This document shows positions 6,634-57,702 of a DNA stretch of 64,000 nucleotides, piece after piece. Source of the stretch: Bifidobacterium moukalabense DSM 27321 (lineage in GTDB: Bacteria; Actinomycetota; Actinomycetes; Actinomycetales; Bifidobacteriaceae); the NCBI RefSeq assembly GCF_000522505.1, contig NZ_AZMV01000004.1, positions 124,001 through 188,000 of the forward strand, in the 5' to 3' direction. The notes below the pieces were generated by a model, which did not search any database, was not told the origin of the DNA, and was given only the letters and a program-made list of their open reading frames with translations. Within the stretch, counting starts at the first letter, position 1; the number at the start of each line of letters is the position of its first letter. Both the position numbers and the translations under genes were made by a program.

Positions 6634-6643
6634 AACTTCAGGC

Positions 6644-7099: not shown

Positions 7100-7111
7100 G
7101 AGGAACGATCG

Positions 7112-8293: not shown

Positions 8294-8307
8294 CCGCGGT
8301 CCGGGCG

Positions 8308-8804: not shown

Positions 8805-8824
8805 TCGGCAGAAAAGGAGAGGGC

Positions 8825-10018: not shown

Positions 10019-10024
10019 TGCGTC

Positions 10025-11650: not shown

Positions 11651-11681
11651 CGTGGCAGGTAAGAATCGTAAGGAAGTGATC

Positions 11682-12131: not shown

Positions 12132-12165
12132 GTCGTCTTCGATGCGGTCGCATGGCCGGTCGCAT

Positions 12166-12200
12166 GGCCGGATGCCGACGGAAACGGCATCCGGCCTTTT
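12166..12200 (+). terminator. Terminator of the aro operon
   Basis: GGCCGGATGCC (12166-12176) and GGCATCCGGCC (12186-12196) form a perfect 11-bp stem with a 9-base loop, followed by TTTT. A 12-base direct repeat (TCGCATGGCCGG, tandem) overlaps its left side. Confidence 0.88.
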
Positions 12201-12337
12201 ATGAAAAAGAACCGTGTTTGCGCAAATGTTGCAGGATATCACTGACCGGATTGCATAAACGGGGGGAGACCGTTTGTGACGGATTGCATGCGGGAGGTTC
12301 GGTTTCGGCTTACACCGCAACGGGTCACGCTGTTTCA

Positions 12338-12365
12338 TTGCCTTACGCAGCGTTTCCGCTACAAT
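12338..12365 (+). promoter_or_regulatory. Candidate promoter of the amylopullulanase gene
   Basis: TTGCCT (12338-12343) and TACAAT (12360-12365), 16 bases apart, form the best sigma-70-like promoter in the 389-base gene-free stretch between aroQ and the amylopullulanase gene. Transcription would then start near 12372, leaving a leader of about 150 bases that contains two inverted repeats listed separately. Confidence 0.45.
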
Positions 12366-12381
12366 TGGGCGCAACTTAGGA

Positions 12382-12440
12382 TGCAAACGTATGCACATTC
12401 ATCGCGGAGTGTGTCTTAGGTTATTCGTTATCTACGAATA
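12382..12440 (+). promoter_or_regulatory. Candidate operators in the amylopullulanase leader
   Basis: TGCAAACGTATGCA (12382-12395) is a LacI-like operator with one mismatched pair. TATTCGT-N5-ACGAATA (12422-12440) is a perfect interrupted repeat. Both lie just downstream of the candidate -10 box, where a repressor would block transcription. A third short palindrome, TTTGCGCAAA, lies upstream at 12217-12226. Starch-use genes of bifidobacteria are commonly under LacI-family control, so carbohydrate-responsive repression is a reasonable inference. Confidence 0.4.
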
Positions 12441-12520
12441 CAAATAACGCATACGTTGTCAAGTGGTGGGATTCTGCTGTGGAGCCCGTTCGCTGATCTC
12501 GATGATGAGAACGGAGAGTT

Positions 12521-14215
12521 ATGGTCGTCCAGAATCGACCGGCTGGCCGAGCAGTGGCGATTGGCGTCGCCATAGCCATGGCGTGCGCCGCACTTGTGGC
12601 GCCGACGTTGGCCCAAGCCCAGCCAGAAGCACGGACAAGCGCCAAGAAAGACGTGCAGGTCATCGCCTTCCAGCAAAGCTGGAACACGATCGCCAAGGAA
12701 TGCACCGACACCTATGGACCTGAGGGCGTGGCATACGTGGAGGTGTCGCCCCCGCAGGAGTCCATTCAAGGCACGCAGTGGTGGACGAGCTACCAACCGG
12801 TGAGTTACAAGCTTGATTCCAAACTCGGCACCGAGGCCGAATTCAAGAACATGATCAAGCAGTGCAATGCCGCCGGCGTGGATATCATCGCCGATGTCGT
12901 GATCAATCAGACCACCGGTTCCGACGTCGCCGCCGGAGACCAGAAAGGCGTGGCCGGCAGCGACTACAACGGTTCCACCGGAACCTATCCGGGATTCGCC
13001 ACCTCGCAATATCCGGGCGGTATCACCGATTCGGACTTCCATGGCTGCAAAAGGAACATATCCGACTACACCAACCAGCAGGAAGTGCAGGAATGCCGCT
13101 TGAGCTCCATGTGGGATTTCGATTCCGAAAGCGAGAAGGTGCAGGACATCCAATCCGACTATCTCGTATCGCTATGGAATGCCGGTGTGCGTGCATTCCG
13201 CATGGACGCCGTCAAGCACATCAATACCAACAGCATGAAGGCGCTCAAGGAGAAGTTCGCGCAGAAGATCGGCAAGAACGCGAATGACATCTATTGGATT
13301 CAGGAAGTCATCGGCAACTCTTCCGAAGCGTCCGGCATCCAGCCGAGCAACTACCTGCAGAACGGCACCGTGACGCAATTCGGCTTCAAAAGCGAGATGA
13401 ACCAAGCTTTCAAAGACAAAATCGCCAAGCTCAAGGGCCTGAAGGACCGTCTTGACAAGGACATCGACTCCGCGAACGCCAACGTATTCGTGACCAATTG
13501 GGACACCGCCCGCAACCAGGGCGCGCTCACATACAAGGACGGTTCCAGGTTCCAGTTGGCCAATGCGTTCATGCTCGCCTATGACTATGGCACTCCGCGA
13601 CTGCTGTCCGACTACAAGTGGGACGTCAACGACAACGGGGCACCCGGCGCCACCGACACCAAGGTGCCGGATGTCGACATGGGCAGCGCATGCTCCGCCA
13701 ATTCCTCCGATTGGAACTGCGAACAACGGTGGACCTCCACCCGCGGCATGATCGCCTTCCATAATTATGCGGGCGATGCCGCCGTGACCGACTGGCAGGA
13801 CGACGGCGACAGCAACATCGCGTTCTCCCGTGATGGCAAGGGCTTCATCGCCATCAACAATTCCAAGGACGACAAGAACGCAAGCTACACGACTTCCCTC
13901 GCCGATGGCGAGTACTGCGACGTGTATGCGGTCATGGACTGCTCCAAGACCGTAACCGTCAAGGGAGGCAAGGTCGAGACGAAGATTCCGGCGCATTCCG
14001 CCATCGCACTGTACGCCGGCGCCACCAAGACATCGCATCCACAGGCTTCCGCCGCCAAGGATCCTTCCGATCCGGACATCGGCCAGCAGGATGACGAGGT
14101 GAGCGCGACCGACAAGACCGTCACCATCTACTACAAGCCGGCGAATGCGACTGGAAGACCCCCAAGGTCCACTACGGTCTGGGCGATGACTGGAACCAGC
14201 CGGAAGCCGACATGA
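12521..14215 (+). CDS. apuB: Amylopullulanase, N-terminal amylase half (frameshifted gene, part 1)
   Basis: This is the secreted alpha-amylase half (GH13) of what should be one ~1704-residue amylopullulanase. A signal peptide (residues ~1-33, AVAIGVAIAMACAALVAPTLAQA) is followed by the TIM barrel: region I DVVINQ (D125-Q130), region II with nucleophile D229 in FRMDAVKH, region III with acid E262 in YWIQEVIG, and region IV NWD (D328). The usual histidines of regions I and IV are Gln130 and Trp327. The frame goes astray in a carbohydrate-binding domain just after YYKPANA (near 14146-14150), ending in ~20 unrelated residues. Restoring one base continues directly into the next reading frame. Confidence 0.88.
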   Translation: MVVQNRPAGRAVAIGVAIAMACAALVAPTLAQAQPEARTSAKKDVQVIAFQQSWNTIAKECTDTYGPEGVAYVEVSPPQESIQGTQWWTSYQPVSYKLDSKLGTEAEFKNMIKQCNAAGVDIIADVVINQTTGSDVAAGDQKGVAGSDYNGSTGTYPGFATSQYPGGITDSDFHGCKRNISDYTNQQEVQECRLSSMWDFDSESEKVQDIQSDYLVSLWNAGVRAFRMDAVKHINTNSMKALKEKFAQKIGKNANDIYWIQEVIGNSSEASGIQPSNYLQNGTVTQFGFKSEMNQAFKDKIAKLKGLKDRLDKDIDSANANVFVTNWDTARNQGALTYKDGSRFQLANAFMLAYDYGTPRLLSDYKWDVNDNGAPGATDTKVPDVDMGSACSANSSDWNCEQRWTSTRGMIAFHNYAGDAAVTDWQDDGDSNIAFSRDGKGFIAINNSKDDKNASYTTSLADGEYCDVYAVMDCSKTVTVKGGKVETKIPAHSAIALYAGATKTSHPQASAAKDPSDPDIGQQDDEVSATDKTVTIYYKPANATGRPPRSTTVWAMTGTSRKPT

Positions 14216-44710: not shown

Positions 44711-46051
44711 ATGGAGAAGAATCTGACCAGCGGCAGTGTGTTCAAAACCATCATTACGTTCGCCTTGCCGTACCTGCTGTCATACTTCCTGCAGACGCTG
44801 TACGGCATGGCCGACCTGTTCATCGCGGGGCAGTTCATCGGCGTGGACGGCATCACCGCCGTCGCGAACGGCAGCCAGGTGCTCTACATGCTCACCGTCG
44901 TCATCGTCGGGCTTGCCATGGGCGCCACCGTGACCATCGGTCGGGCCGTAGGCGCGAACCGGCTTGATCGGGCCGCTGAGGCCATCGGCAACACCATCAC
45001 GTTGTTTGCGGGTGTGGCTTTTGTGCTTACCGCCGTGCTGTTGCTCAGCGTCGATGGCATCGTCGCGATGATCGGCACGCCGACGGAGGCGGTGGACGGT
45101 ACCGCGCAATACCTGACGATCTGCTTCATCGGCATTCCGTTCATCGTCGCCTATAACATCATCAGTTCGATTTTTCGGGGCTTGGGTGATTCGAAAAGTC
45201 CCATGTACTTCATCGCCGTGGCCTGCGTATGCAACATCGCGCTTGACTACCTGTTCATAGGCTATTTCCAGCTTGGACCGTCCGGTGCGGCGCTCGGCAC
45301 CACGCTCGCGCAGACCATCAGCGTGATCGTGGCGTTCGTCGCCATCCGGTACAAGCGGACCGGCATCCACCTGCATGCGGGGAATCTGCGTCCGCATCGC
45401 GACATGCTCGGCGGCATCCTCACGATCGGCGTGCCGACCGCCGTGCAGGACGGCTGCATTCAGATCGCGTTCATCATCATCACCGTAATCGCCAACTATC
45501 GCGGTCTCAACGACGCCGCGGCCGTCGGGGTGGTCGAAAAGGTGATCAGCATGCTGTTCCTCGTACCATCTTCCATGCTCGCCACCGTTTCGGCGGTGTC
45601 TGCGCAGAACATCGGTGCCGGCAAACCGGAACGTGCGGTGAAGACGCTCAAATACGCCACGGCGATCACCGTTGCATACGGCATCATCATTGCCGTCATC
45701 GTGGAATTGACCGCGAGCTCCATCGTGGGCCTGTTCACCACTGACGCCACCGTGATTCTGCTTGGAACGCAATACATCCGCAGCTATATCGTCGACGCGA
45801 TCTTCGCCGGCGTGCATTTCTGCTTCTCCGGCTTCTTCGCTGCATACGGGCGTTCGTACATCGGTTTCATCCACAACATCATCGCCATCACACTGGTACG
45901 AGTGCCTGGTTCGTACATCGCCTCGAAACTCTTCCCGACCACGCTGTTCCCGATGGGTATCGCCGCTCCGGCCGGTTCGCTCCTGTCGGTGATCATCTGC
46001 CTCGGTTTCTATGCGTGGCTTAAGCGTCGAGGCGTATTCGCGGCGAAATGA
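44711..46051 (+). CDS. MATE-family efflux transporter
   Basis: This is a 446-residue protein with about twelve membrane helices. It opens LTSGSVFKTIITFALPYLLSYFLQTLYGMADLFIAG, a typical MATE N-terminus, and the second half repeats the pattern (ILTIGVPTAVQDGCIQIAF). These proteins export cationic compounds against Na+ or H+. The ATG at 44711 follows AAAGAGGGGC; the frame extends to 44654 without family likeness. It lies 129 bases after lacI on the same strand. Whether it belongs to the sugar operon is unclear. Confidence 0.88.
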   Translation: MEKNLTSGSVFKTIITFALPYLLSYFLQTLYGMADLFIAGQFIGVDGITAVANGSQVLYMLTVVIVGLAMGATVTIGRAVGANRLDRAAEAIGNTITLFAGVAFVLTAVLLLSVDGIVAMIGTPTEAVDGTAQYLTICFIGIPFIVAYNIISSIFRGLGDSKSPMYFIAVACVCNIALDYLFIGYFQLGPSGAALGTTLAQTISVIVAFVAIRYKRTGIHLHAGNLRPHRDMLGGILTIGVPTAVQDGCIQIAFIIITVIANYRGLNDAAAVGVVEKVISMLFLVPSSMLATVSAVSAQNIGAGKPERAVKTLKYATAITVAYGIIIAVIVELTASSIVGLFTTDATVILLGTQYIRSYIVDAIFAGVHFCFSGFFAAYGRSYIGFIHNIIAITLVRVPGSYIASKLFPTTLFPMGIAAPAGSLLSVIICLGFYAWLKRRGVFAAK

Positions 46052-46164
46052 AGGCCGGAAAGACCCGCCTCATTCGTATATGGCGGGTGCCCAGGGCATG
46101 GAACCGTCAAGGATGCGTCCGCATGGGTATGCCTGATGGATGGCCGGCATCCGCCGACGTATGC

Positions 46165-47190
46165 CTACCTGTGCTTGGGGGCGAGGGTGCCGGCCAGGGC
46201 GCGCTCGCCGGGGCGGGCCAGGGGGCCGACCAGCTCGTGTGCGGTATAGGGTTCCTCGATGTAGGCGATGTCTTCGGCGGTGAGCTGCACGTCGAGCGCG
46301 GCGATGGCGTCGTCCACGCGTTCCGTCTTTGAACAGCCGACGATCGGTGCGGTAATGCCCCTGGCCCAATGCCAGGCCAGCGCCACGCGGGCCATCGGCA
46401 CGCCGAGACGCTCGGCCACTTCGTGGACCCGCCTGATGATCGGCAGGTCCTGCTCCATGTCCCGGTCATATTTGCTGCGCATCGTATTATCCGTGATGCT
46501 TCGCTTGGAATCCGAATTCCATTTCGGCCTCGCCAGATGGCCGGAAGCCATAGGGGAGTAAGGGGTCAGCGCCACGTCATACTGGCGGCATACGGGAATC
46601 ATCTCGCGTTCGTCCTCACGGTAGAGCAGATTGTAATGGCATTGCATGCTGGTGAACTTCGTCCAGCCGTTCGCCTCCGCCGCGGCCTGCATGTTGTGGA
46701 ATTGGTAGGCGTACATCTCACTGGCGCCGAGCGCGCGCACCTTGCCGGACCTGACGAGCGAGTCCAACGCCTCCATGGTCTCCTCGATGGGCGTGCCATA
46801 GTCGAAGCGGTGGATGATGTACAGATCCAGATAGTCGGTGCCCAGTCGTCGGAGGGTGCCTTCGATCTCATGGGCGATGGCTTCCTTCGACAAATGACCA
46901 TCGTTGAAATACACCTTGCTGGCCAGAACCACCCTATCTCGACTGATGCCCAGGCGCTTCAGCGCGCGGCCGATGTACGTTTCGGAGGTACCGAACGCAT
47001 AGCAGTTGGCGGTGTCGATGAAATTGATGCCGCTGTCGATGGCATGCCCGACGACATGCTCGGTGGCATCCTGATCGATGGTCCACTGGTGGAAATCCGG
47101 TGATGCCTCACCGAAACTCATGCCGCCAAGGCAGACCTTGGAAACCTGGATGCCGGACCATCCCAAGGGTGCGTATCGCATATCGACCAT
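46165..47190 (-). CDS. Aldo/keto reductase
   Basis: This is a 341-residue NADPH-dependent reductase. The catalytic tetrad is visible: Asp and Tyr in DTANCYAFGTSETYIGRAL, Lys in VLASKVYF, and His in YIIHRFDYG. The cofactor region APIVGCSKTERVDDAIAALDV lies near the C-terminus. Length and sequence fit the AKR group related to YajO/IolS. The start follows AAGGAGCACGAT. The substrate is unknown; the gene is divergent from the cupin gene. Confidence 0.92.
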   Translation of the reverse strand: MVDMRYAPLGWSGIQVSKVCLGGMSFGEASPDFHQWTIDQDATEHVVGHAIDSGINFIDTANCYAFGTSETYIGRALKRLGISRDRVVLASKVYFNDGHLSKEAIAHEIEGTLRRLGTDYLDLYIIHRFDYGTPIEETMEALDSLVRSGKVRALGASEMYAYQFHNMQAAAEANGWTKFTSMQCHYNLLYREDEREMIPVCRQYDVALTPYSPMASGHLARPKWNSDSKRSITDNTMRSKYDRDMEQDLPIIRRVHEVAERLGVPMARVALAWHWARGITAPIVGCSKTERVDDAIAALDVQLTAEDIAYIEEPYTAHELVGPLARPGERALAGTLAPKHR

Positions 47191-47357
47191 ATCGTGCTCC
47201 TTCGCTCATAATCGAAACCGGTATGATTCGAAGCTAGCATGTTCGACCTGAGGAAACCAATGCCCTATATATCGTCGGTTTCCATGCAGAAACGGCATGG
47301 AAAAGCATGTCGGACACTCATTGGACATTCTTTTCGCGCAGGCGTTGAATACAAGAT

Positions 47358-47765
47358 ATGAACAATCCAAGTACATTCCCAATGGGCGAACCGAATGACG
47401 GTTTCGCACAGTATTTCGTTGGCCAAAGCTATCTGGCACCGGTGCTTGATGCCCCGGAAATCACCATCCACAACGTAACCTTCGAGCCTGGGTGCCGCAA
47501 TAACTGGCATATCCATCACGGTGGCGCGCAGGTGCTCATCGCAGTAGGCGGACGTGGCTATTACCAGATCGACGGGCAGGAGCCGAAGGAGCTCAAGGCC
47601 GGCCAGGCCGTGTGCATTCCGGCCGATACCAAGCACTGGCACGGCGCCGCTCCGGGTGAGGCATTCTCGCACCTCGCATTCATGGTGCCCGCCGGTGACC
47701 CTTCCACCATGAGCAACGAGTGGCTCGAACCGGTTGACGTTGCGTCGTACGAACGTCTTGCCTGA
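47358..47765 (+). CDS. Small cupin-domain protein
   Basis: This is a 135-residue single-domain cupin. Motif 1 is GCRNNWHIHHGGAQVLIAVGGRGYYQ, with the metal histidines and Glu/Gln position, and motif 2 is PADTKHWHGAAPGEAFSHLAFMV. The form resembles the cupins found beside carboxymuconolactone decarboxylase-like genes, but none is here. It probably binds a divalent metal. Function is not assigned. Confidence 0.85.
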   Translation: MNNPSTFPMGEPNDGFAQYFVGQSYLAPVLDAPEITIHNVTFEPGCRNNWHIHHGGAQVLIAVGGRGYYQIDGQEPKELKAGQAVCIPADTKHWHGAAPGEAFSHLAFMVPAGDPSTMSNEWLEPVDVASYERLA

Positions 47766-47946
47766 CCGCTTTCGTTCCTTTCCAGACCGAGCATTTCGTC
47801 ATTATGGAAGTCGTTCGGGGGAGATCCATTTTCGCACAACGCGAAATGTTCGCCTTTGAATGGCCCCCCTTTTACGTATTCGCCGACCCGGCCGGCACGT
47901 CCATGGGGGCCGGATCCCGGTCGGAGGCGTGACTATACTGGCGGGC

Positions 47947-48375
47947 ATGTCACGACGGCACATCATTCGACTGGATCTGATGGGCGTGGTGTTCGTCGGC
48001 GGATGCGTCGGCACCGGTCTACGGTACGCATGCTCATCCATCGCCGATTGCGGGACGTTCCACCTTGGCACGTTCACGGCGAACATGACCGCCTGCTTCA
48101 TATACGCGGCGCTATCCGCCTGGCTGGGCTGCTCCACACGGCTTACGGGCCGTGCCAAGGAATACGTGAACCGCGGCTTCGGCATGGGCATGTGCGGAGG
48201 GCTCTCCACCATGTCGACGCTCGCCCTGGAGCAGTTCACGTTGCTGCATGGAGGAGATGCACCCGGCGCCGCCATCTACTGCGCCGCGACGTTCCTTGTC
48301 GGATTCGCGCTCGCCTATGCGGGTTCCCGCGTCGGTTCGCATATCGCGAACAAGGAGAAGGGGGCCGTACGATGA
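47947..48375 (+). CDS. crcB: Fluoride ion channel CrcB/FluC, first subunit
   Basis: This is a 142-residue four-helix membrane protein of the FluC family, which lets fluoride leave the cell. It has the family pattern GGCVGTGLRYACSS near the start, FTANMTACFIYAALSAWL in helix 2, and GMCGGLSTMSTLALEQ in helix 3, where Ser/Thr and Phe residues line the pore. It overlaps the next gene by four bases (ATGA). Paired FluC genes usually encode a heterodimeric channel. Confidence 0.88.
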   Translation: MSRRHIIRLDLMGVVFVGGCVGTGLRYACSSIADCGTFHLGTFTANMTACFIYAALSAWLGCSTRLTGRAKEYVNRGFGMGMCGGLSTMSTLALEQFTLLHGGDAPGAAIYCAATFLVGFALAYAGSRVGSHIANKEKGAVR

Positions 48376-48743
48376 ATGCGATCCTACCGATTCTGGTATG
48401 CCTATGCGGTGGAATCGGCGCCTCCGCCCGCTACATCTGCGATGCATACATCAGGACGCTCTGGCATAGGGCATTCCCGATGTCCACATTCGTCATCAAC
48501 GTGGTGGCCGGTTTTCTGGCGGGAGTCGTCGCCGGGCTCTCCATGCGTTCCGTCGTGCCGCAGGCTTCCCGTCTGCTGCTCGCCACCGGTTTCCTTGGTG
48601 GGTTCTCGACCTTCTCGACCATGATGAACGAAGCCGTCACCCTGCTGCGCGGCGGCAGGATCGCGGCATTCGTCGGATACTTCGTGGCGTCCGCCATCGT
48701 TCCGGTGGTCGCCGTCGCCTGCGGATACATGATCGCCGAATGA
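48372..48743 (+). CDS. crcB: Fluoride ion channel CrcB/FluC, second subunit
   Basis: This is a 123-residue FluC protein. GGIGASARYICDAYI, STFVINVVAGFLAGVVAG and the pore signature ATGFLGGFSTFSTMMNEAVTLL are all present; the GGFSTFSTM block is closer to consensus than in its partner. It is translationally coupled to the first subunit. No fluoride riboswitch of the known kind was recognised before the pair. Confidence 0.92.
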   Translation: MNAILPILVCLCGGIGASARYICDAYIRTLWHRAFPMSTFVINVVAGFLAGVVAGLSMRSVVPQASRLLLATGFLGGFSTFSTMMNEAVTLLRGGRIAAFVGYFVASAIVPVVAVACGYMIAE

Positions 48744-48862
48744 TGCGGCGGGAGAGGCGGACGCATATTCAGGCCATGCGTCGCCGCCATCACAGTCGTC
48801 GCATATCCATTGGCGGCATGTGACCGTAGACCGCCTGTCCGCCCGTAGGGTGGGTGGCCGAC

Positions 48863-50026
48863 TTACATCATGTCCATCAGCATGAAGGCGAGCATCAGCT
48901 GCAGTCTGCTGTCAAGCCGGGACAGGTCCAAACACAGAATCTCCGAAGCCTTGGCGATTTTGTAGTTCACCGTATTGCGATGCACGAACAGTTCGTCGGC
49001 GGTCTCCTTCACGCTGCCGTTGTGATTGAGATAGCATCGCAGCACATCCAGCAGGTCGGAATCGGTCTCCTTGTCGTATTCGACCAACGGCCCCAGAATC
49101 TGTTCATAGTATTCCCGAGGGATTTCCGGATCCTCGATGCCGAGCAATACCCGGTACGCGCCGAGGTCGTCGAAGAAGTTGATGCGGTCCTTCAGTTTTT
49201 TCCGCGATTGCAGTTTCAGGATGGAAGCCGCCTGACGGTGGCTTTTGCTGACGCAGCGTATGCTTTTGGTAAGCTTGCCCACGCCGATGGAGGCGGTTTC
49301 CTGCCGGCGCAGCGCATGCTCGACGATCGTCAGCATGCCGCGTCCCCGATTGCGCAGCTGCTGCGGCTCGTCGCAGTGCATGACGATGACGATCTGTTTC
49401 CAGGCACTGAATACGGTGCTGAAACGTACATCCCTGTGCAGGTATTTCCTGATTTCCGTGGCGATGAGATTCAGCCGTGCATACGGGTCTCCCGCATAGT
49501 TCTCGACCTGTACGATCGCCACGGCATAGCGCCATTCGATTTCGAAATGGAATTCCGAAAGCGTCGCCGTATACAGTTCCTGCTGGTCGGGGAAGGAGAT
49601 GGCGTTTTGGAACGCCGCGCTTACCATGCGCTCCTTCGTCTCCTCCTCGACAAGGCGGCGGCATAACGGACGGGCGATGTTTTCGAACGGTGCGCTCTTC
49701 GGGATGGTGAACAGCGGAAAGCCGTGTTCCTCGCAAAAGGTCACCACATCCTCGGGTGGCTCCATGAAGAAATGACCGGTGTCAAGGGCGACGCCCGCCG
49801 CCTGATGCTCATACAGGGACTTGACATGGTTGAGCAGCGCGCCATCCTCCTGCAAGGCGATGCCGGTGACGAGGATCAGTTCGTCGCCCGCCAGATAATC
49901 GATCATCTGAGTGGACTCCAGCACATGTACCCAAGTGACGTGACGGCTGAGTCCGTCTTTGCCCGCGGTTGGATAAAGGGGGACATCCGGGCAGTCCTCA
50001 ATGAGCTCCCGTAACTCCAAAGTCAT
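48863..50026 (-). CDS. PucR/CdaR-type transcriptional regulator
   Basis: The product is 387 residues. An N-terminal PucR domain (VTWVHVLESTQMIDYLAGDELILVTG) leads to a GGDEF-like fold middle, and a C-terminal PucR helix-turn-helix (LRCYLNHNGSVKETADELFVHRNTVNYKIAKA, residues ~327-358). Members often control uptake of purines, GABA or other nitrogen compounds in response to the compound itself. It starts 313 bases from, and is divergent to, the aminotransferase gene, whose leader carries a 22-bp palindrome. It is therefore the likely regulator of that cassette. Confidence 0.9.
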   Translation of the reverse strand: MTLELRELIEDCPDVPLYPTAGKDGLSRHVTWVHVLESTQMIDYLAGDELILVTGIALQEDGALLNHVKSLYEHQAAGVALDTGHFFMEPPEDVVTFCEEHGFPLFTIPKSAPFENIARPLCRRLVEEETKERMVSAAFQNAISFPDQQELYTATLSEFHFEIEWRYAVAIVQVENYAGDPYARLNLIATEIRKYLHRDVRFSTVFSAWKQIVIVMHCDEPQQLRNRGRGMLTIVEHALRRQETASIGVGKLTKSIRCVSKSHRQAASILKLQSRKKLKDRINFFDDLGAYRVLLGIEDPEIPREYYEQILGPLVEYDKETDSDLLDVLRCYLNHNGSVKETADELFVHRNTVNYKIAKASEILCLDLSRLDSRLQLMLAFMLMDMM

Positions 50027-50099
50027 GTGTAATCTCCGTGAAATATAGCTTTTACAGTGTGTTTCGAGATGTCATGGACATCGCGTGCGCATGGTCGTG

Positions 50100-50128
50100 T
50101 TGGAGGGTCATCATAATGGCCTTATATT
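50100..50128 (+). promoter_or_regulatory. Candidate promoter of the aminotransferase cassette
   Basis: TTGGAG (50100-50105) and TATATT (50123-50128) are 17 bases apart, in an AT-richer part of the 312-base divergent gap between the PucR-type gene and the aminotransferase. The leader would be about 200 bases long and include the palindrome at 50187-50208. Confidence 0.4.
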
Positions 50129-50186
50129 ACCGTTCTTTACGAATCGTTCATCTTCTTTTCGGGGTCATGGTCATGTTACGACAAAT

Positions 50187-50208
50187 CGATTGTGCTCAAG
50201 CACAATCG
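50187..50208. promoter_or_regulatory. 22-bp palindrome in the cassette leader
   Basis: CGATTGTGCT-CA-AGCACAATCG has perfect 10-base arms around two central bases. It is the outstanding symmetric element between the PucR-type regulator and the aminotransferase. It is a candidate operator for that regulator (inference); in RNA it would form a short hairpin without a T-run, so it is not an obvious terminator. Confidence 0.6.
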
Positions 50209-50338
50209 GATTTGGGCTTGGACGACTGGAGAAACGGTTCCAAGGGGAAACATAATGAGTCCCAGTTCCGGCCCGGAAACGACGGCCGGGCGGGCCCCTT
50301 CCAGACCTTTCACCACAAGAAACAAGGAGAGCTGCACC

Positions 50339-51556
50339 ATGAGGCTGCAAGACACCGGACTGACGTTCGAAGACATCAAGAACAAGGTCGACACCTATAT
50401 GATCGAAACCTACGAGCGTTTCGACTTCCTCGCCGACCACGCCAAGGGCGTCTACATGTATGACGAGAACGACACCCCGTACCTCGACTTCTATGCGGGC
50501 ATTGCCGTCAATTCCGTCGGCAACTGCAATGAAAAGGTCGTCAAGGCGGTGCAGGACCAAGCCGCCACCCTGATGCAGACCTTCAACTATCCGTACACCG
50601 TGCCGCAGGTGCTGCTCGCCGAAAAGATCTGCAAGGCCATCGGCATGGACAAGATCTTCTACCAGAACTCCGGCACCGAATCCAACGAGGCCATGATCAA
50701 GATGGCACGCAAGTACGGCGTCGAGAAGTACGGTCCGAACAAGTACCATATCGTCACCGCCCGCGAATCCTTCCACGGTCGTACCTTCGGCGCCATGTCC
50801 GCGACCGGTCAGCCGGACAACGCCTGTCAGGTCGGCTTCGGTCCGATGACCGACGGCTTCTCCTACGCTCCGTTCAACGATCTTGAAGCCTTCAAGGCGG
50901 CCTGCAACGAGAACACCATCGGCATCATGGTCGAGCCGGTCCAGGGCGAAGGCGGCGTGCACCCGGCGACCAAGGAATTCCTGCAGGGACTGCGCGAGTT
51001 CTGCGATGAGAAGGGCATCCTGCTGCTGCTCGACGAAGTACAGTCCGGATGGGGCCGTACCGGCGCGCTCATGTCATACATGAACTACGGCATCAAGCCG
51101 GACATCGTCTCCATGGCCAAGGCCATGGGCGGCGGCATGCCGATCGGCGCGATCTGCGCCACGGAGGAGGTGGCCAAGGCCTTCACCATGGGCTCCCACG
51201 GCACCACCTTCGGCGGCCATCCGGTCTGCTGCGCCGCTTCGCTTGCCGCAGTCACCGAAATCATCGACCGCGACCTGCCGGGCAACGCCAAGAAGGTCGG
51301 TGCCTACTTCATCGATAAGCTTTCCAAACTGCCGCATGTCAAGGAAGCCCGTGGCCAGGGCCTATTCGTCGGCGTCGAATTCGACGGCACCATCAACGCC
51401 GTGGACGTCAAGCATGGTTGCCTCGACCGCAAGCTGCTCATCACGGCCATCGGCAAGGACGTCATCCGCATGGTCCCGCCGCTGATCATCACCGAAGAGG
51501 ATGCCGACAAGGCGACCGCCATCATCAAGGAAACCATCGAGGCGCTGTCCGAGTGA
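50339..51556 (+). CDS. toa: Class-III aminotransferase, probable taurine (omega-amine):2-oxoglutarate aminotransferase
   Basis: This is a 405-residue PLP enzyme. Conserved blocks are FYAGIAVNSVGNCNEKVVKA, YQNSGTESNEAMIKMARKYG, the pyridoxal Asp in LLLLDEVQSGWGRTG, and the Schiff-base Lys261 in VSMAKAMGGGMPIGA, then GTTFGGHPVCCAASLA. General likeness is to acetylornithine/GABA transaminases. Yet it sits in no arginine operon; it precedes a kinase-like gene and an amino-acid permease fused to an alcohol dehydrogenase. I recall a characterised taurine aminotransferase, Toa, from B. kashiwanohense with such a neighbour, hence the symbol. Substrate remains inference. The start follows AACAAGGAGAGCTGCACC. 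Confidence 0.72.
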   Translation: MRLQDTGLTFEDIKNKVDTYMIETYERFDFLADHAKGVYMYDENDTPYLDFYAGIAVNSVGNCNEKVVKAVQDQAATLMQTFNYPYTVPQVLLAEKICKAIGMDKIFYQNSGTESNEAMIKMARKYGVEKYGPNKYHIVTARESFHGRTFGAMSATGQPDNACQVGFGPMTDGFSYAPFNDLEAFKAACNENTIGIMVEPVQGEGGVHPATKEFLQGLREFCDEKGILLLLDEVQSGWGRTGALMSYMNYGIKPDIVSMAKAMGGGMPIGAICATEEVAKAFTMGSHGTTFGGHPVCCAASLAAVTEIIDRDLPGNAKKVGAYFIDKLSKLPHVKEARGQGLFVGVEFDGTINAVDVKHGCLDRKLLITAIGKDVIRMVPPLIITEEDADKATAIIKETIEALSE

Positions 51557-51606
51557 CCTGCCCGGCGGTTGCCGAAATCCAATACCCGTATGAAAGGAGG
51601 AGCTGT

Positions 51607-52197
51607 ATGAAGCACATGGTCATCACCATCGGCTGCGAATACGGCGCCGGTGGTCCGGAGATCGGAAGGATGCTCGCCAAGGCGCTTGGCATCGAATACT
51701 ACGACCGTGACCTCGTCGATAAGATCATCAACGATCTGGACGTGGACAAGGAGCTTGTGGAGAAGGCCGACAGGGGAACGAACGTCCCCTATACCTTCGA
51801 GACGACGCTCGGCCCGCGCTACGCGAACCTGACGAATAAGGTCATCTCCCTGCAATACCAGGCCATGCACAAGATGGCGGAGCAGTCATCCTGCGTCATC
51901 ATCGGCCGCAGCGCCAACTATCTGCTGCAGGACAGGGACGATCTGATCAACATCTTCATCTACGCGCCGGAGGAGGATCGCATTCGCGCGATCATGGAGA
52001 ACCAATCCGTGAGCGAAAAGAAGGCGCGCGAGATCGTCGGCTACAACGACGAGAAGAACCGCAGCAGGCATCAGTACATCACCGGCACCAATCGCGGCGA
52101 CCGGAGCCAGCGCGACCTGCTGATCAACAGCAGCCTGCTCGGCTGGGAGAAGACCTGCCAGTATCTGCTCATGCTCGTCGAAATGCTGAACGAATAA
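51607..52197 (+). CDS. Cytidylate-kinase-like family protein
   Basis: This is a 196-residue P-loop protein resembling the 'cytidylate kinase-like' group. The phosphate loop is ITIGCEYGAGGPEIGRMLAKALGIEYYDRDLV, where the usual GKS/T is degenerate (GAGGPEIG), a feature common in this group. Further on come VIIGRSANYLL and IFIYAPEEDRIRAIM. The family occurs widely in gut anaerobes and is not shown to phosphorylate CMP. The gene lies between the aminotransferase and permease-dehydrogenase genes with good AAGGAGGAG spacing, so it is part of the cassette. Its job there is unknown. Confidence 0.8.
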   Translation: MKHMVITIGCEYGAGGPEIGRMLAKALGIEYYDRDLVDKIINDLDVDKELVEKADRGTNVPYTFETTLGPRYANLTNKVISLQYQAMHKMAEQSSCVIIGRSANYLLQDRDDLINIFIYAPEEDRIRAIMENQSVSEKKAREIVGYNDEKNRSRHQYITGTNRGDRSQRDLLINSSLLGWEKTCQYLLMLVEMLNE

Positions 52198-52285
52198 CCG
52201 GACACAGGGGCCGTGACTCAGGGGAGCGCGGCCTCTTCGTCTCTTGAATCGCCATCGCAGAGCTTACGTGAGGAAGGAACTTTCG

Positions 52286-54958
52286 ATGGAAACGCCAACT
52301 AAGAAAACTTCGGAATTTAAAAAGTCATTCAGTTCCCTTGACATCCTGATGATCGCCTTCGGCGCGATGATCGGCTGGGGATGGGTGGTCTCCACCGGCG
52401 ACTGGATCGGAACGGCGGGCGTGATCGGCGCCATGCTCGGCTTCATCCTCGGTGGCGTGATGATCTTTTTCATCGGCATGACCTATGCCGAGCTGACGCC
52501 GGCAATGCCCGAATGCGGCGGTGAGCATGTGTTCAGCATGCGCGCCATGGGTCCGATCGGCTCGTTCGTCTGCACCTGGGCCATCGTGCTCGGTTATGTG
52601 AGTGTCGTCTGCTTCGAGGCGTGCGCCTTGCCGACCATCATCACCTATGTGTGGCCGGACTTCCTGCAGGGGTACCTGTACTCCGTCGCGGGATTCGACA
52701 TCTATGCCACATGGCTGGGCACCGCCGTGCTGTTCGCCGTCTTCATCACCGTCATCAACATCATGGGTGCGCAGATCGCGGCCAAGCTGCAGAACATTCT
52801 GACCCTGTGCATCGGCGCGGCCGGCATCCTGCTGATCGCGGCATCCGTGATCACCGGTGACGTCTCCAATCTGCAGGACCAGATGTTCGAAGGCTCGGGC
52901 ATGGGCGGCATGATGTCCACCATCGTCAAGGTCGCCGCCGTCAGCCCGTTCTTCTTCATCGGCTTTGATGTGATTCCGCAGGCCGCCGAGGAGATCAACG
53001 TGCCGCTCAAGAAGATCGGCAAGATTCTCATCCTTTCCATCGTTTTGGGCATCAGCTTCTATGCGTTGGTGATCTTCTCCGTGGGCTATGTGATGACCGG
53101 CGATCAGATTGCCGCCTCGGCCAACGGCACCGGCCTGGTCACCGCCGACGCCATGGCGGCGGCCTTCCACAGCAACATCATGGCGAAGGTGCTGATCCTC
53201 GCCGGCATGTGCGGCATCCTTACCAGCTGGAACTCCTTCATGATCGGTGGCAGCCGTGCCATGTACTCCATGGCCGAGTCCTACATGATTCCGCGTTTCT
53301 TCACCAAGCTGCATTCCAAAGCCAAGACCCCGTATGTCGCCATCATCGTCGTCGGCGTCCTGAGCGTGCTCGCGCCGTTCGCCGGACGTAAGATGCTCGT
53401 GTGGGTCGTGGACGCGGGCAACTTCGGATGCATCCTCGCATATTGCATGGTGTCGCTGTCCTTCATCATCCTGCACGTGAAGGAACCGGACATGGTGCGC
53501 CCATACCGGGTGAAGCACTGGAAGCTCATCGGCACCATGGCCGTGCTGATGTCCGGCATCATGATCCTGCTGTACGTCCTTCCGGGCACCGGCGTGACCC
53601 TGGCCCCGCAGGAATGGCTCATGGTCGCCGGCTGGTCCGCACTCGGCGTCGTGTTCTTCATCTTCAGCAAGATGGTGTACAAAGACAAGTTCGGCTATTA
53701 CGCGCAGCTGTACGTCAGCGAGCTCGACAACGGCGGCGAACAGGAAGAGGCGGTCATCGAATCCTCCGCCGTCGTCAACCTCGCCGCGACCGAAGCCAGC
53801 GCCCCGGACGAATGGGCGAACGGTTTCGGCTACTTCCTGCCGATCAATCTGGTGTTCGGCCAGGGCAAGGTGCAGGAGATCGGCAAGATCGCCTCCGCAC
53901 ACGGTACCACCGCAATGATCGTTACCGGCGGGCGTTCCGTGAAGGGCAACGGCACCTACGACAAGGTCCGCGGCCTGCTCGAGGGCGTGGGCATGACCAC
54001 CGTGCTCTTCGACAAGGTCACGCCGAACCCGCTGACCACCACGGTCGAAGAGGGTGCCCGACTCGCCAGGGACCGGCATGTCGATGTCGTGATCGGCCTC
54101 GGCGGCGGCAGCGCCATGGATGCGGCCAAGGGCATTGCGTTCATGGCCGAGAACGAGGGCGGCGTCAGCGAATACATCTATGGTGAGCGCACCTCCGACA
54201 AGGCCCTGCCCCTCATCCTCGTGCCGACCACCTTCGGCACCGGATCCGAAGCCAATGGCTTCGCCGTCATGACCAATCCGGAGAACGGCGACAAGAAGTC
54301 GTTGCGTAGCCCGGCGCTCGTGGCCACCGCATCCATCGTCGATCCCGACCTGATGCGCACGATGCCGAGCAGTGTGATCGCCGCCAACGGCTGCGACATG
54401 CTGTGCCACTGCATCGAAGCGTTCACCGCCAATAATGCGCAGCCGTTCACCGACGCGCTCGCCCTATATGCGATCCCGCTCATCGCCAACAACATCGTGA
54501 GCCTGTATCGCGGCGAGGGTACCGACGAACAGTGGTCCAAGGTCTGCCTTGCCGGCACCATCGGCGGCATGGTCATCAACACCGCCGGCATCACTCTGGC
54601 GCACGCCATGGAACATCCGGTCAGCGGTCTGAAGAACGCCACCCACGGCAAGGGCCTGGCCGCCATCGAACCGTTCGCCATCGAAGCGACCTATCAGTAC
54701 AACCGTTTCAAGTACGGTCGTATCGCGAGGGTCCTGGGCGGATTCACCGCCGAGGACTGCGCGCCACGAGTGAAGAGACTGCTCGCGGATCTTGATCTCA
54801 ACGTGACGCTAGGCGATCTCGGCATCGAGAAGAAGGACATCTCGTGGCTTGCGCAGAACGCCCAGAAGGTTTCGCCGGGCAATCTCGTGAACACTCCGGG
54901 CTCCAAGCTCGTCACCACGCAGGAATCGCTGGAGAAGCTGTACGAGTCAATGCTCTGA
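52286..54958 (+). CDS. APC amino-acid permease fused to iron-type alcohol dehydrogenase (TauF-like C-terminal domain)
   Basis: One uninterrupted 890-residue chain. Residues ~18-470 are an APC-superfamily permease of about twelve helices, opening LDILMIAFGAMIGWGWVVSTGDW and including MTYAELTPAMPECGGEHVF. A polar linker (~475-507) leads to an iron-dependent alcohol dehydrogenase at 508-890. That domain has GFGYFLPINLVFGQG, nucleotide-binding GGGSAMDAAKG, and all four metal ligands: Asp704 and His708 (NGCDMLCHCIEAF), His773 and His787. It would import an amine and reduce the aldehyde made from it by the aminotransferase. I recall TauF, a sulfoacetaldehyde reductase of this family from B. kashiwanohense. 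The start follows GAGGAAGGAAC. Confidence 0.88.
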   Translation: METPTKKTSEFKKSFSSLDILMIAFGAMIGWGWVVSTGDWIGTAGVIGAMLGFILGGVMIFFIGMTYAELTPAMPECGGEHVFSMRAMGPIGSFVCTWAIVLGYVSVVCFEACALPTIITYVWPDFLQGYLYSVAGFDIYATWLGTAVLFAVFITVINIMGAQIAAKLQNILTLCIGAAGILLIAASVITGDVSNLQDQMFEGSGMGGMMSTIVKVAAVSPFFFIGFDVIPQAAEEINVPLKKIGKILILSIVLGISFYALVIFSVGYVMTGDQIAASANGTGLVTADAMAAAFHSNIMAKVLILAGMCGILTSWNSFMIGGSRAMYSMAESYMIPRFFTKLHSKAKTPYVAIIVVGVLSVLAPFAGRKMLVWVVDAGNFGCILAYCMVSLSFIILHVKEPDMVRPYRVKHWKLIGTMAVLMSGIMILLYVLPGTGVTLAPQEWLMVAGWSALGVVFFIFSKMVYKDKFGYYAQLYVSELDNGGEQEEAVIESSAVVNLAATEASAPDEWANGFGYFLPINLVFGQGKVQEIGKIASAHGTTAMIVTGGRSVKGNGTYDKVRGLLEGVGMTTVLFDKVTPNPLTTTVEEGARLARDRHVDVVIGLGGGSAMDAAKGIAFMAENEGGVSEYIYGERTSDKALPLILVPTTFGTGSEANGFAVMTNPENGDKKSLRSPALVATASIVDPDLMRTMPSSVIAANGCDMLCHCIEAFTANNAQPFTDALALYAIPLIANNIVSLYRGEGTDEQWSKVCLAGTIGGMVINTAGITLAHAMEHPVSGLKNATHGKGLAAIEPFAIEATYQYNRFKYGRIARVLGGFTAEDCAPRVKRLLADLDLNVTLGDLGIEKKDISWLAQNAQKVSPGNLVNTPGSKLVTTQESLEKLYESML

Positions 54959-55027
54959 GTGTTCGATCGCGTCGATTCGTCGATGGACGGCCGATGAGGC
55001 CTCCCTGGGCGAGCGGGGAATGAGGTC

Positions 55028-55065
55028 GTGATGCCCCCCGCCGGGGAACCGGTGGGGGGCATCAC
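55028..55065. terminator. Hairpin ending the aminotransferase cassette
   Basis: GTGATGCCCCCCGCC (55028-55042) pairs with GGTGGGGGGCATCAC (55051-55065), with one G-T pair and an 8-base loop. No T-run follows, but the stem is very stable and lies between the cassette and the LysE gene. Confidence 0.7.
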
Positions 55066-55134
55066 GCTGTTCGCGTATGGAAAATGACTTTCCGTGATGG
55101 CATAGTGGAGTACGTCGTCAACGGGAGGAGTGCC

Positions 55135-55863
55135 ATGACATACATGCAGGCGTTGCTGGGATTCGCGGTGCTGGCGGGAGCCATGGCCATGGTTCCCGGT
55201 CTTGACATGGTGATGACCATGAACGAGGCGATTCACTACGGTCGCCGCAATGGCATCATGGCGGGATTCGGCATCCAGTGCGGCGTGCTCGTGTGGGCGG
55301 TCGCCGCTTCGCTTGGACTTGCCGCGCTGATCTCCGCATTTCCGCTGGCCTACGACATCATCCGTGTGATCGGCGGCCTGTATCTGTTCTACTTGGCGTG
55401 GAGCATGTCCGGCATGTCCGATTGGGTGAGGCGAAGGCTCGGGATCGTAACGGGGCGGGCTGCAAAGCAGACCCGGGAATCCACCGATGATCCAGCCGCA
55501 TCCACGGAATCCGCCGCACAGGCCTTGATCGCGCCGACGCCCAGGCCGAGCCTCTTCTCATCATGGTGGCGCGGATTCCTCACCGACTTTTTCAATCCGA
55601 AAATCGGCGTCTTCTACATAGCCGTCATCCCGCAGTTCCTCGTGTCCGGCGTCGGCAATCTCCAAATGGGTCTGTCGCTCGGCCTGATCCATGCCGTCGA
55701 AGGCGGCGTGATCCTCACCGTTGTGGCCTGTGCGGCCGCCACCTTCTCCGCCAAACTCACCAGTTCACGCGGCAAAAGCATCCTTTCCATCGTTACCGGT
55801 GGCGTCATGGCCCTGCTTGGCGGCGCAACCATCCTCGACGTGGTGCGAAGCCACACCGCCTGA
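55135..55863 (+). CDS. LysE-family amino-acid exporter
   Basis: This is a 242-residue membrane protein with about six helices. Early comes AMVPGLDMVMTMNEAIHYGRRNGIMAGFGIQCG, the LysE/RhtB signature region, and later FLTDFFNPKIGVFYIAVIPQF. A polar central loop (residues ~110-140, SAAQALIAPTPRPS) is longer than usual. It lies 177 bases after the permease-dehydrogenase gene, beyond a hairpin, and its 3' end overlaps the converging AraC-family gene by 99 bases. The exported compound is unknown. Confidence 0.9.
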   Translation: MTYMQALLGFAVLAGAMAMVPGLDMVMTMNEAIHYGRRNGIMAGFGIQCGVLVWAVAASLGLAALISAFPLAYDIIRVIGGLYLFYLAWSMSGMSDWVRRRLGIVTGRAAKQTRESTDDPAASTESAAQALIAPTPRPSLFSSWWRGFLTDFFNPKIGVFYIAVIPQFLVSGVGNLQMGLSLGLIHAVEGGVILTVVACAAATFSAKLTSSRGKSILSIVTGGVMALLGGATILDVVRSHTA

Positions 55864-56844
55864 CGGAAGATCACGGCTCATCCCATAATCGTCGTAACGG
55901 TCGGTATGTGGCGAAAGCGGATTCCCGCTGGTCGTATCGTCTCGTTGCATGGTGCGGAAAGCCCTTGGCGTCGCACCGCAGCGTCTGCGGAAGACGTTGG
56001 TGAAGTAGCTGGGTGAGGAAAAGCCGCAGGCTTTGGCGATCTCATTGATTCCCATACCGGTTTCGGCAAGCAGCGCACGTGCATGTTCGATGCGCTGCTC
56101 GATGAGATATTCGTTTGGCGTGCTGCCTACGTACCTGCGGAACAGCATGCAGCACTGGCTTCGACTGATCGAGGCCGCCGAGGCGATATCATCCAGCGTG
56201 AGTGGGTCGCTGAAGCGCTGTTGAATCAGACCGGTCATGGCGAGCACTGCGAACCGGTTGCGCTGCTCGCAAGCATATTCCGGCGTACCCGCATCGTCGA
56301 CAAGGTGGAAATGCTCCAGGGCGGTGTCGCATAGGGCGATCGCTTGGGCGACCGCCTGTAGCGGGCTGGCATCGGTGGCGTTCGGCATCAGCGCGACGAT
56401 ATCGTCGATGGATTGCAGGGCCTTGCGCTGCCATGCCGTCTCGTTGGTCAATGTGATGTAGTCATCCATGTTCTGTGCGGTCCGCCGCTCAACACGCCGT
56501 GCGATGTCGGGGGAGAGCCGTTCGAATAGGGCAGGACCTGCCACCACGCAGGTGAACCAGGATTCGCGCCGGTCCGGGCAGAAGGTGTAGTGCAGCCGGC
56601 TTGAATTGACCATGATGCCCTCTCCGGCCCGCAGCGCCACGATGCGCCCGTTGATGAAATAGGAGATCTCGCCCGTGATGACGTGCAGGAATTCCAGGTC
56701 ACGATGCCAGTGGCGCGAACAGCGGAAATCCCGATAGCGCGACATCGGGTCACGATGCGCGTACAACGGCAGGCCGGGCAGGTTGTAGTGCACCTGTTCG
56801 GACAGGTCCGAGAACACGGTGATCGGTTGGAAATCCTCGCTCAT
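55765..56844 (-). CDS. AraC-family transcriptional regulator with unusual tail
   Basis: The product is 359 residues. A cupin-like N-terminal sensing domain (HWHRDLEFLHVITGEISYFINGRIVALRAGEGIMVNS, ~residues 45-81) is followed by two helix-turn-helix units near residues 215-305 (LTLDDIASAASISRSQCCMLFRRYVGSTPNEYL and INEIAKACGFSSPSYFTNVFRRRCGATPRAFR). Regulation by a small molecule, often a sugar, is typical. After the DNA-binding domain the frame runs on ~55 residues (from RDDTTSGN) with no family likeness. It overlaps the LysE gene end antisense for 99 bases. A lost stop or a frameshift could explain the tail. Confidence 0.88.
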   Translation of the reverse strand: MSEDFQPITVFSDLSEQVHYNLPGLPLYAHRDPMSRYRDFRCSRHWHRDLEFLHVITGEISYFINGRIVALRAGEGIMVNSSRLHYTFCPDRRESWFTCVVAGPALFERLSPDIARRVERRTAQNMDDYITLTNETAWQRKALQSIDDIVALMPNATDASPLQAVAQAIALCDTALEHFHLVDDAGTPEYACEQRNRFAVLAMTGLIQQRFSDPLTLDDIASAASISRSQCCMLFRRYVGSTPNEYLIEQRIEHARALLAETGMGINEIAKACGFSSPSYFTNVFRRRCGATPRAFRTMQRDDTTSGNPLSPHTDRYDDYGMSRDLPSGGVASHHVEDGCAAKQGHDATGNDGKDAFAA

Positions 56845-56887
56845 GGTAGGAATCCTACGCCGACCTCATGATGATGGATGCACGATT

Positions 56888-56918
56888 TTGATAGTACGGC
56901 AATCGGAAACGATATAAA
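56888..56918 (+). promoter_or_regulatory. Candidate plus-strand promoter in the AraC-GNAT gap
   Basis: TTGATA (56888-56893) is followed by GATATAAA (56911-56918), which gives a 17-base spacing to GATATA or 19 to TATAAA. The 440-base gap between the AraC-type gene and the GNAT gene otherwise holds only a possible small ORF. Confidence 0.35.
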
Positions 56919-57064
56919 TGCATGCCATGAAACAGTAATGGATTGTACGATAATAGGTATCTTCAGCTGCAGCGACGAAGATCAAACGAATACCAAAATC
57001 CGACAGTGACAGTGCGATACCTCAATTGCCTGCACTCGGCCGTTTTTGATTGGAGCTGATTGCC

Positions 57065-57193
57065 ATGCATGGTTTCACCATGATCTGTGACCGACTGCTG
57101 AACCATTATCTCGCCTGCGTACATGGTTGGATGCTTGAACGTGGAGCCGGTTGGGATGACGGTATGTGGTTCGCCCGTTGGTACCGTGCGTAG
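57065..57193 (+). CDS. Possible small ORF, 42 residues, Trp-rich
   Basis: ATG at 57065 with TTGGAG about nine bases upstream opens a 42-codon frame ending TAG. The peptide has an amphipathic start (MHGFTMICDRLLNHYLACV) and a tryptophan-rich end (GWDDGMWFARWYRA). I recognise no family. The placement between a plausible promoter and the GNAT gene, plus a usable ribosome-binding site, make it worth listing. Chance occurrence is quite possible. Confidence 0.3.
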   Translation: MHGFTMICDRLLNHYLACVHGWMLERGAGWDDGMWFARWYRA

Positions 57194-57288
57194 GGGCATT
57201 GATTCCCTCCATGCCTTCCAGTCATGACAGGTTCCGCATATTAGGACGGTAATGCCCCCTTAACGATATGCGCGCTATCGTTCAGGCT

Positions 57289-57702
57289 ATGCAGATTACG
57301 TATACCGATGAGAAGAAGTTCACCAAGGAACAGACGCAACGGTTGTTCCGTTCCGTCGGTTGGGTGTCGGGAGAGTATCCGGAGCGCCTGCACAAGGCGC
57401 TGATGGGCTCGTCCACCGTATTCACGGCTTGGGACGGCGACCGTCTGGCAGGGCTGATACGCGTGCTCGACGATACCGAGATGGTGGCCTACATGCACTA
57501 CGTGCTTGTGGATCCGGAATATCAGGGTCACGGCATCGCCGGGCATCTGGTCGGCATGGTCAAAGACAGGTATCGTGATTACCTGTATATCGAGGTCATG
57601 CCCGAGGAGAGCAAAAACGCCACGTTCTACCAGAGGCACGGATTCCGGATCATGGAGGACGGCGTGGCCATGCAGATCTGCAATCCCGGCGAAAGGCGCT
57701 GA
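57289..57702 (+). CDS. GNAT-family N-acetyltransferase
   Basis: This ~137-residue acetyl-CoA-dependent transferase has the acetyl-CoA-binding core VLVDPEYQGHGIAGHLVGMVKDR (motif A, Q/RxxGxG/A), followed by IEVMPEESKNATFYQRHGF, the usual end of the fold. The start is taken at 57289 (MQITYTDE), as small GNATs normally begin this way. The ATG at 57268 adds seven residues; neither has a clear ribosome-binding site. The substrate is unknown. Confidence 0.88.
   Translation: MQITYTDEKKFTKEQTQRLFRSVGWVSGEYPERLHKALMGSSTVFTAWDGDRLAGLIRVLDDTEMVAYMHYVLVDPEYQGHGIAGHLVGMVKDRYRDYLYIEVMPEESKNATFYQRHGFRIMEDGVAMQICNPGERR

Follow-up and report, generated by a model that had tools for sequence, protein, structure and literature searches.

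The genome of Bifidobacterium moukalabense DSM 27321 (2.52 Mb) carries a gene cassette in which a class-III aminotransferase, a cytidylate-kinase-like protein of the Cytidylate_kin2 family and an amino acid permease fused to an iron-type alcohol dehydrogenase are encoded on one strand, divergent from a PucR-type regulator. It lies in a stretch of 64,000 nucleotides of contig NZ_AZMV01000004.1 (contig positions 124,001–188,000), here called the window, whose own numbering is used for coordinates. The cassette is real and widespread, a variant of the established scheme by which omega-amines are transaminated and then reduced. The operon probably imports, deaminates and reduces a small omega-amino compound for its nitrogen, a degree of confidence that applies to this mechanism and not to taurine as its substrate. 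An earlier note on this DNA had proposed an import-transaminate-reduce cassette for an omega-amine, probably taurine, related to the Toa/TauF cluster. The pathway class is upheld by the anatomy of the locus and by 80 related loci; the orthology to Toa/TauF is not, and taurine is plausible only. No description of the cassette was found in the literature at the level of the titles and abstract openings listed.

Gene content and proposed mechanism

Open reading frames, Pfam and NCBIfam agree on the four genes, so that the arrangement given in the earlier note was confirmed. The features are:

48863–50026, minus strand: PucR-family transcription regulator (PF07905, PF17853 (GGDEF_2), PF13556 (HTH_30)), divergent from the operon
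50187–50208, no strand: perfect inverted repeat CGATTGTGCT-CA-AGCACAATCG (10-2-10), candidate operator
50339–51556, plus strand: class-III (ArgD-like) aminotransferase, 405 aa (PF00202, 369 bits)
51607–52197, plus strand: Cytidylate_kin2 protein, 196 aa, altered P-loop (PF13189, 162 bits)
52286–54958, plus strand: permease-iron alcohol dehydrogenase fusion, 890 codons in one frame (Pfam domains)
52286–53728, plus strand: APC-superfamily amino acid permease domain, residues 1–481 (PF13520, 124 bits; PF00324, 115 bits)
53729–53818, plus strand: linker of the fusion, residues 482–511, probably disordered (predicted local distance difference test, pLDDT, <50)
53819–54958, plus strand: iron-type alcohol dehydrogenase domain, residues 512–890 (PF00465, 171 bits), proposed aldehyde reductase

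The aminotransferase starts with ATG at 50339, immediately preceded by AAGGAG, and the start of the Cytidylate_kin2 gene at 51607 is preceded by AGGAGG.

What was observed directly is the gene content with its conservation and linkage, the replacement of the loop residues, the metal ligands and the conserved palindrome; the reactions, their directions and the ligands of the following model are what we infer. The operon would be inducible and would scavenge nitrogen. The permease half of the fusion would import the amine, whose amino group the ArgD-like aminotransferase would hand over to 2-oxoglutarate or pyruvate as the 2-oxoacid acceptor. This step would supply nitrogen to the cell and produce an aldehyde. 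The dehydrogenase half would then use NAD(P)H to reduce the aldehyde; the resulting alcohol would exit as waste and also dispose of reducing power. The amine is probably detected by the PucR protein, for which the palindrome at 50187–50208 would be the site of action. The Cytidylate_kin2 protein, perhaps without the usual phosphate transfer, may be an accessory or regulatory subunit of the permease-reductase.

Residues K261, D232, R148 and E199 of the aminotransferase do not vary in an alignment of 23 rows, 22 of which are relatives at 71–95% identity. In the dehydrogenase domain, 73 of 79 aligned rows keep the whole set of metal ligands D704, H708, H773 and H787, and three of the remaining six are cut by contig ends. 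The retained catalytic residues and metal site support import, deamination and reduction. So do two further cassettes within the genus, Toa/TauF and GabT/Hbd, which combine a PucR-type regulator, an aminotransferase and an iron-type dehydrogenase with the same logic.

A constant core with an exchangeable deaminating enzyme

Relatives were sought by scanning genomes with six aligned fusions, and the best 80 of 158 were taken as related loci (designated by L numbers). As both patterns used in the search fall within the permease portion, the sample leaves out relatives that have the reductase only. Several loci are cut by contig ends, e.g. L028, L031, L039, L060, L077, L081 and L084, so counts of "none" or "no reductase" are upper limits.

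The 80 loci come mostly from Lachnospiraceae and also from Megasphaera, Selenomonas, Succinatimonas and Pseudoscardovia. Permease and reductase form one full-length frame in 52 of them; additional to these, L084 is fused in the part that remains before the contig end. The Cytidylate_kin2 gene is present in 77/80. Within Bifidobacterium, ten of the 112 genomes have the fusion, and the same ten genomes carry the Cytidylate_kin2 gene, for which one other genome gave a marginal match. The nearest named fusions are those of B. merycicum, B. pongonis and B. erythrocebi at 85%, and another Bifidobacterium genome has one at 96%. Since the fusion is a single open frame in all ten carriers of the genus and in 52/80 related loci, a frame artefact or a chance fusion was rejected. 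The reductase falls into two subtypes: one, fused or separate, shares 51–64% identity with the window domain when the closest Bifidobacterium are set aside; the other is about 30% identical and encoded by a separate gene.

The deaminating gene varies. It is ArgD-like only in 35 loci, ArgD-like plus GabT-like in 19 and GabT-like only in 12; seven loci have an ornithine cyclodeaminase (OCD)-family protein with a DAO-type flavoprotein, and in seven, several of them at contig edges, none was seen. Judged by these gene sets, the deaminating enzyme is interchangeable, and the kinase-like protein, the permease and the reductase are constant. This exchange around a constant core is the main reason for reading the cassette as uptake of an amine, formation of an aldehyde and release of an alcohol.

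In the permease tree four window-type rows join eight Lachnospiraceae rows (support 100/99), seven of which have the OCD set and one (L027) an ArgD-like aminotransferase, and seven other Bifidobacteriaceae rows form a separate clade. This placement of Bifidobacteriaceae in two positions of the tree suggests separate acquisitions of the cassette by lateral transfer. On two proteobacterial plasmids, OCD homologues adjoin genes for an APC permease, a Rid hydrolase and an FAD oxidoreductase (two regions). Genes for AstE/AspA-like hydrolases were seen near the cassette in L033, L083 and L089, and one for a circularly permuted ATP-grasp protein in L033 and L089. It is possible that the AstE/AspA-like hydrolases provide an amide-hydrolysis step that feeds the cassette.

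Comparison with the Toa/TauF and GabT/Hbd cassettes

The taurine nitrogen-assimilation cluster Toa/TauF of Bifidobacterium kashiwanohense includes the reductase BkTauF (PDB 6JKO), as stated in the available part of PMC6616044. The reductase of locus L143 (genome G041) is identical to 6JKO over 375 residues and adjoins genes for a class-III aminotransferase, a PucR regulator and an ABC transporter. The window cassette resembles this cluster, as far as the latter is described there (PMC6616044), in the adjacent PucR-family regulator, class-III aminotransferase and iron-type dehydrogenase, in its occurrence in gut Bifidobacterium and in the proposed transaminate-and-reduce logic. The differences are that transport is represented in L143 by ABC-transporter genes and in the window by an APC permease joined to the reductase, and that the Cytidylate_kin2 protein belongs to the window cassette.

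We aligned the window proteins with the L143 cluster. The aminotransferases share 25.9% identity (129 bits), below the match of the window enzyme to three GabT-like aminotransferases (171–182 bits), and the reductase domain is 28% identical to TauF. In the window domain, Ile, Ile and His take the places of Phe252, Thr257 and Phe265 of TauF, which were examined by mutation according to the available part of PMC6616044. Orthology to Toa/TauF, as suggested in the earlier note, was consequently rejected. The missing TauF residues do not exclude sulfoacetaldehyde as a substrate, because BwSarD, a sulfoacetaldehyde reductase, lacks F252, T257 and F265 as well (PMC6616044, as far as available). TauF homologues with at least 75% DNA identity are present in 15/112 Bifidobacterium genomes and in none of the ten fusion carriers; this mutual exclusion is not significant within the 112 genomes (p = 0.22). 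A TauE-type exporter gene was seen downstream in L024 and in the Toa cluster L141, in neighbourhoods that were not scanned systematically.

The second comparison concerns the genome of DSM 27321 itself. Contig C2 (L111, C2:170000–188500) contains at 6240–14119 another cassette with genes for a PucR-like regulator, a carbon-nitrogen hydrolase, an APC-type permease, a GabT-like aminotransferase, an Hbd-like dehydrogenase (best solved match Cvir-Hbd2, 361 bits) and TenA. GabT, PucR and the Hbd-like gene occur together in six of eight GabT-like regions (L111–L113, L116, L118, L119) and not in L114 and L115. The two cassettes have in common a PucR-like regulator, an APC-type permease, a class-III aminotransferase and an iron-type dehydrogenase. 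They differ in that the counterparts of the window proteins are only 35% (aminotransferase), 25% (dehydrogenase) and 25% (permease) identical and the permease is unfused, in that the regulators belong to distant clades, and in the carbon-nitrogen hydrolase and TenA there versus the kinase-like protein here. Because the genome has this cassette as well as a separate argD, the window cassette probably handles a different substrate or a broader set.

The regulator had been called undescribed in the earlier note; however, regulators of the same PF07905 and HTH_30 type also adjoin Toa/TauF, so that it is not peculiar to this cassette. The window PucR is about 33% identical to four Toa-cluster regulators (219–223 bits) and scores 53–63 bits against six GabT-cassette regulators. 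In a regulator tree it groups with the Toa/TauF-cluster proteins, with a support of 86/87 that lies below the starred level. By similarity, then, the window regulator is nearer to the Toa/TauF-cluster regulators than to those of the GabT cassettes.

The palindrome is situated in the divergent intergenic region, 152 bp 5' of the aminotransferase start. It matches once in the window (0.02 expected) and has no second exact copy anywhere in the genome. The loci of B. merycicum and B. pongonis have it at the same distance of 152 bp with one arm mismatch, and that of B. erythrocebi shows a weaker form with 8-base arms and one mismatch.

Candidate substrates: taurine or a carboxylated omega-amino acid

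We tentatively regard taurine, which would be converted to isethionate, as the most likely single substrate. A gene for bile salt hydrolase (BSH, NF038245) was found in the fetched flanks of seven of the 80 loci, three of them from Bifidobacterium, and in DSM 27321 one lies 42 kb downstream of the cassette. BSH exceeded the cut-off in all ten fusion carriers of the genus and in 23/102 other Bifidobacterium genomes (Fisher p = 1.6e-6, not corrected for relatedness; the ten carriers fall in few lineages, so that p overstates independence), and it was present in four of six further carriers that were looked up. The kinship of the regulator to those of Toa/TauF also speaks for taurine. The idea that taurine dehydrogenase (TauX) is ornithine-cyclodeaminase-like was followed, but the available passages of PMC5320631 and PMC11423573 name TauXY without saying so; hence the OCD-type loci were not used as evidence for taurine.

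Several points weigh against taurine. Neither the aminotransferase nor the reductase is orthologous to Toa/TauF, with F252, T257 and F265 absent, and the genus p-values come from few lineages. In Lachnospiraceae the link to BSH is weak: 8 of 14 carriers, defined by at least 63% permease identity, have it, versus 79/285 others (p = 0.023), and among all 21 Lachnospiraceae permease matches BSH exceeds the cut-off in nine. The gut habitat may be the common cause of cassette and BSH. Furthermore, the GabT-like aminotransferase of L033 passes the NCBI cut-off for gamma-aminobutyrate (GABA) transaminase (TIGR00700, 520 vs 506.65), and a dehydrogenase gene near the aminotransferase in L085 and L091 is Hbd-like, a term given by kinship to the L111 gene (Cvir-Hbd2), the L091 gene having no NCBIfam match over cut-off. 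By sequence, these genes in L033, L085 and L091 point to GABA. A broken metal site in the fused reductase domain of three Megasphaera loci, described below, is a difficulty for the proposed model as such.

The carboxylated omega-amino acids GABA, beta-alanine and 5-aminovalerate, taken together, are about as probable as taurine. It is quite conceivable that the same machinery converts one of these to 4-hydroxybutyrate, 3-hydroxypropionate or 5-hydroxyvalerate and does not handle taurine, an explanation that competes with the assignment of taurine and leaves the mechanism untouched. Besides the L033, L085 and L091 genes, the GabT-like aminotransferases in 31/80 loci agree with it, as do those in nine of ten Bifidobacterium carriers compared with 3/102 others; omega-amines are established substrates of class-III aminotransferases. 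For DSM 27321, however, a second GABA route would be redundant, since the GabT and Hbd-like cassette with its PucR-like regulator and permease is present elsewhere in the genome. Moreover, the window aminotransferase is ArgD-like and reaches only 212 bits against a cut-off of 724 on NF005692, the sole GABA-transaminase model among the best 25 of 70 matches.

The permease-reductase fusion

Pfam places AA_permease_2 at residues 16–450 of the fusion and the iron-type dehydrogenase family at residues 520–687 and 699–861. Both PF13520 and PF00324 are over cut-off, which makes the first half a member of the APC amino acid permease family, and the second half is an iron-type alcohol dehydrogenase by PF00465 and its four metal ligands. 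An AlphaFold2 model, calculated from an alignment of 38 fused proteins, predicts two confident domains (mean pLDDT 85.8), with permease helices extending to residue 481 and a low-confidence linker at 482–511. The Foldseek matches listed (50 of 421, E ≤ 0.001) are all structures of the iron-type dehydrogenase family; 6JKO is among them at rank 9 with 27% identity (rank 10 by sequence).

The three Megasphaera loci with a broken metal site (L066:7989–10631, L070:7992–10613, L071:7992–10613) retain an intact fusion whose reductase domain lacks the metal-site Asp and both later His. At the second ligand position L066 has Lys, and L070 and L071 have Gln, as does TauF. These are the only rows among the 79 that are not cut and are without the metal site. 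The broken site within an intact fusion suggests, as far as the residues tell, a non-catalytic role there. From this, one could propose that the fused dehydrogenase domain serves less as a bulk reductase than as a sensor or gate for the permease, responding to the level of NADH or aldehyde. The best NCBIfam model of the domain, the alcohol dehydrogenase-like regulatory protein ErcA, would fit, although it is far under its cut-off (226 vs 550). Against this proposal, which we consider unlikely, all four ligands are kept in 73/79 rows, and the reductase is a separate gene in 25/80 loci.

The kinase-like protein

The Cytidylate_kin2 protein scores 162 bits against a cut-off of 28 on PF13189 and thus belongs by sequence to the family of 3HDT ("putative kinase") and 3FDI ("uncharacterized protein"). 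In the alignment, the loop that reads REYGSGGR or REFGSGGH in these solved relatives is CEYGAGGP in the window protein. Thus, both basic loop positions of 3HDT/3FDI (R and R/H) are replaced, by C10 and P17. This distinguishes all 77 scored members of the subgroup: C10 is found in 77/77 rows and K/R at position 17 in 0/77. At nearby position 15 of the same loop, where the window protein has Gly, K or R occurs in 15/77 rows. Judged from the alignment, part of the subgroup does have a basic residue in the loop, and the K/R at position 15 speaks against simple loss. It may be that ordinary phosphotransfer has been lost in the window protein and that the protein has a role tied to the transporter. 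The earlier note's view of the kinase-like member as undescribed is in line with the titles and abstract openings listed, among which none describing this cassette was seen.

In L069, L075, L083, L093 and L095, all of which have the separate second reductase subtype, the loop sequence is GAKGN or GARGN, which puts a basic residue two positions away from the replaced one. Two carriers have a second Cytidylate_kin2 member with the loop SRQYASGGR (L133:6575–7222; L134, about 7250–7770, where the gene is split over frames). It adjoins two large transporter-like genes, of multidrug type as read from the sequence.

A more far-reaching arrangement, in which a kinase-like protein without catalytic activity is assembled with permease and reductase into a single membrane-bound machine, seems improbable to us; the K/R at position 15 in part of the subgroup lowers its probability. 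In such a machine the reductase would convert the aldehyde from the imported amine at the transporter's inner mouth, before it could diffuse, the state of alcohol or NADH would gate further uptake, perhaps as amine/alcohol exchange, and the kinase-like protein would be a nucleotide-sensing subunit. The fused Megasphaera reductase would then have decayed to a purely regulatory domain.

Relation to acetylornithine aminotransferases

The window aminotransferase scores 429 bits on TIGR00707 (cut-off 410), the highest score in the genome, and shares this subfamily with the ArgD/AstC acetylornithine-succinylornithine aminotransferases; its closest solved chains are acetylornithine aminotransferases. 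Yet it stays below the cut-off of the acetylornithine transaminase model NF002874 (383 vs 457 bits), its gene context differs, and argC, argJ, argB, argD, argF, argG and argH form one run elsewhere in the genome, with an argD that reaches 593 bits on NF002874. An ArgD-like aminotransferase accompanies the kinase-permease-reductase core in 54/80 loci. A biosynthetic acetylornithine enzyme, which the earlier note had named as a case that would overturn its proposal, with neighbours that are incidental, is therefore most improbable and was rejected.

Neighbouring genes

Two overlapping CrcB-family genes (47860–48743) directly precede the cassette region. Downstream of the fusion, a gene for a LysE-type exporter (55132–55863) overlaps that of a convergent AraC-type regulator (55765–56844); the exporter as BLAST query gave no match at 1e-5 in the 80 related loci. 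An Rfam scan of 46000–57500 gave no match at gathering score.

Significance

Gut strains that convert taurine to isethionate, which feeds hydrogen-sulfide producers, have not been isolated according to the available part of PMC6616044. The cassette names candidate strains: B. merycicum, Fusicatenibacter saccharivorans and Bilifractor porci, which possess BSH, and Megasphaera cerevisiae, which has none. Whichever amine is used, this is a third PucR-aminotransferase-dehydrogenase cassette within one genus. Its unusual features are the fusion, the kinase-like protein with two replaced basic loop positions, the conserved palindrome and the broken metal site in Megasphaera. The fusion would allow testing whether a transporter and the final enzyme of a pathway work better when joined, and the cassette offers a test of what role a conserved kinase-like protein may have after the replacement of two loop residues.

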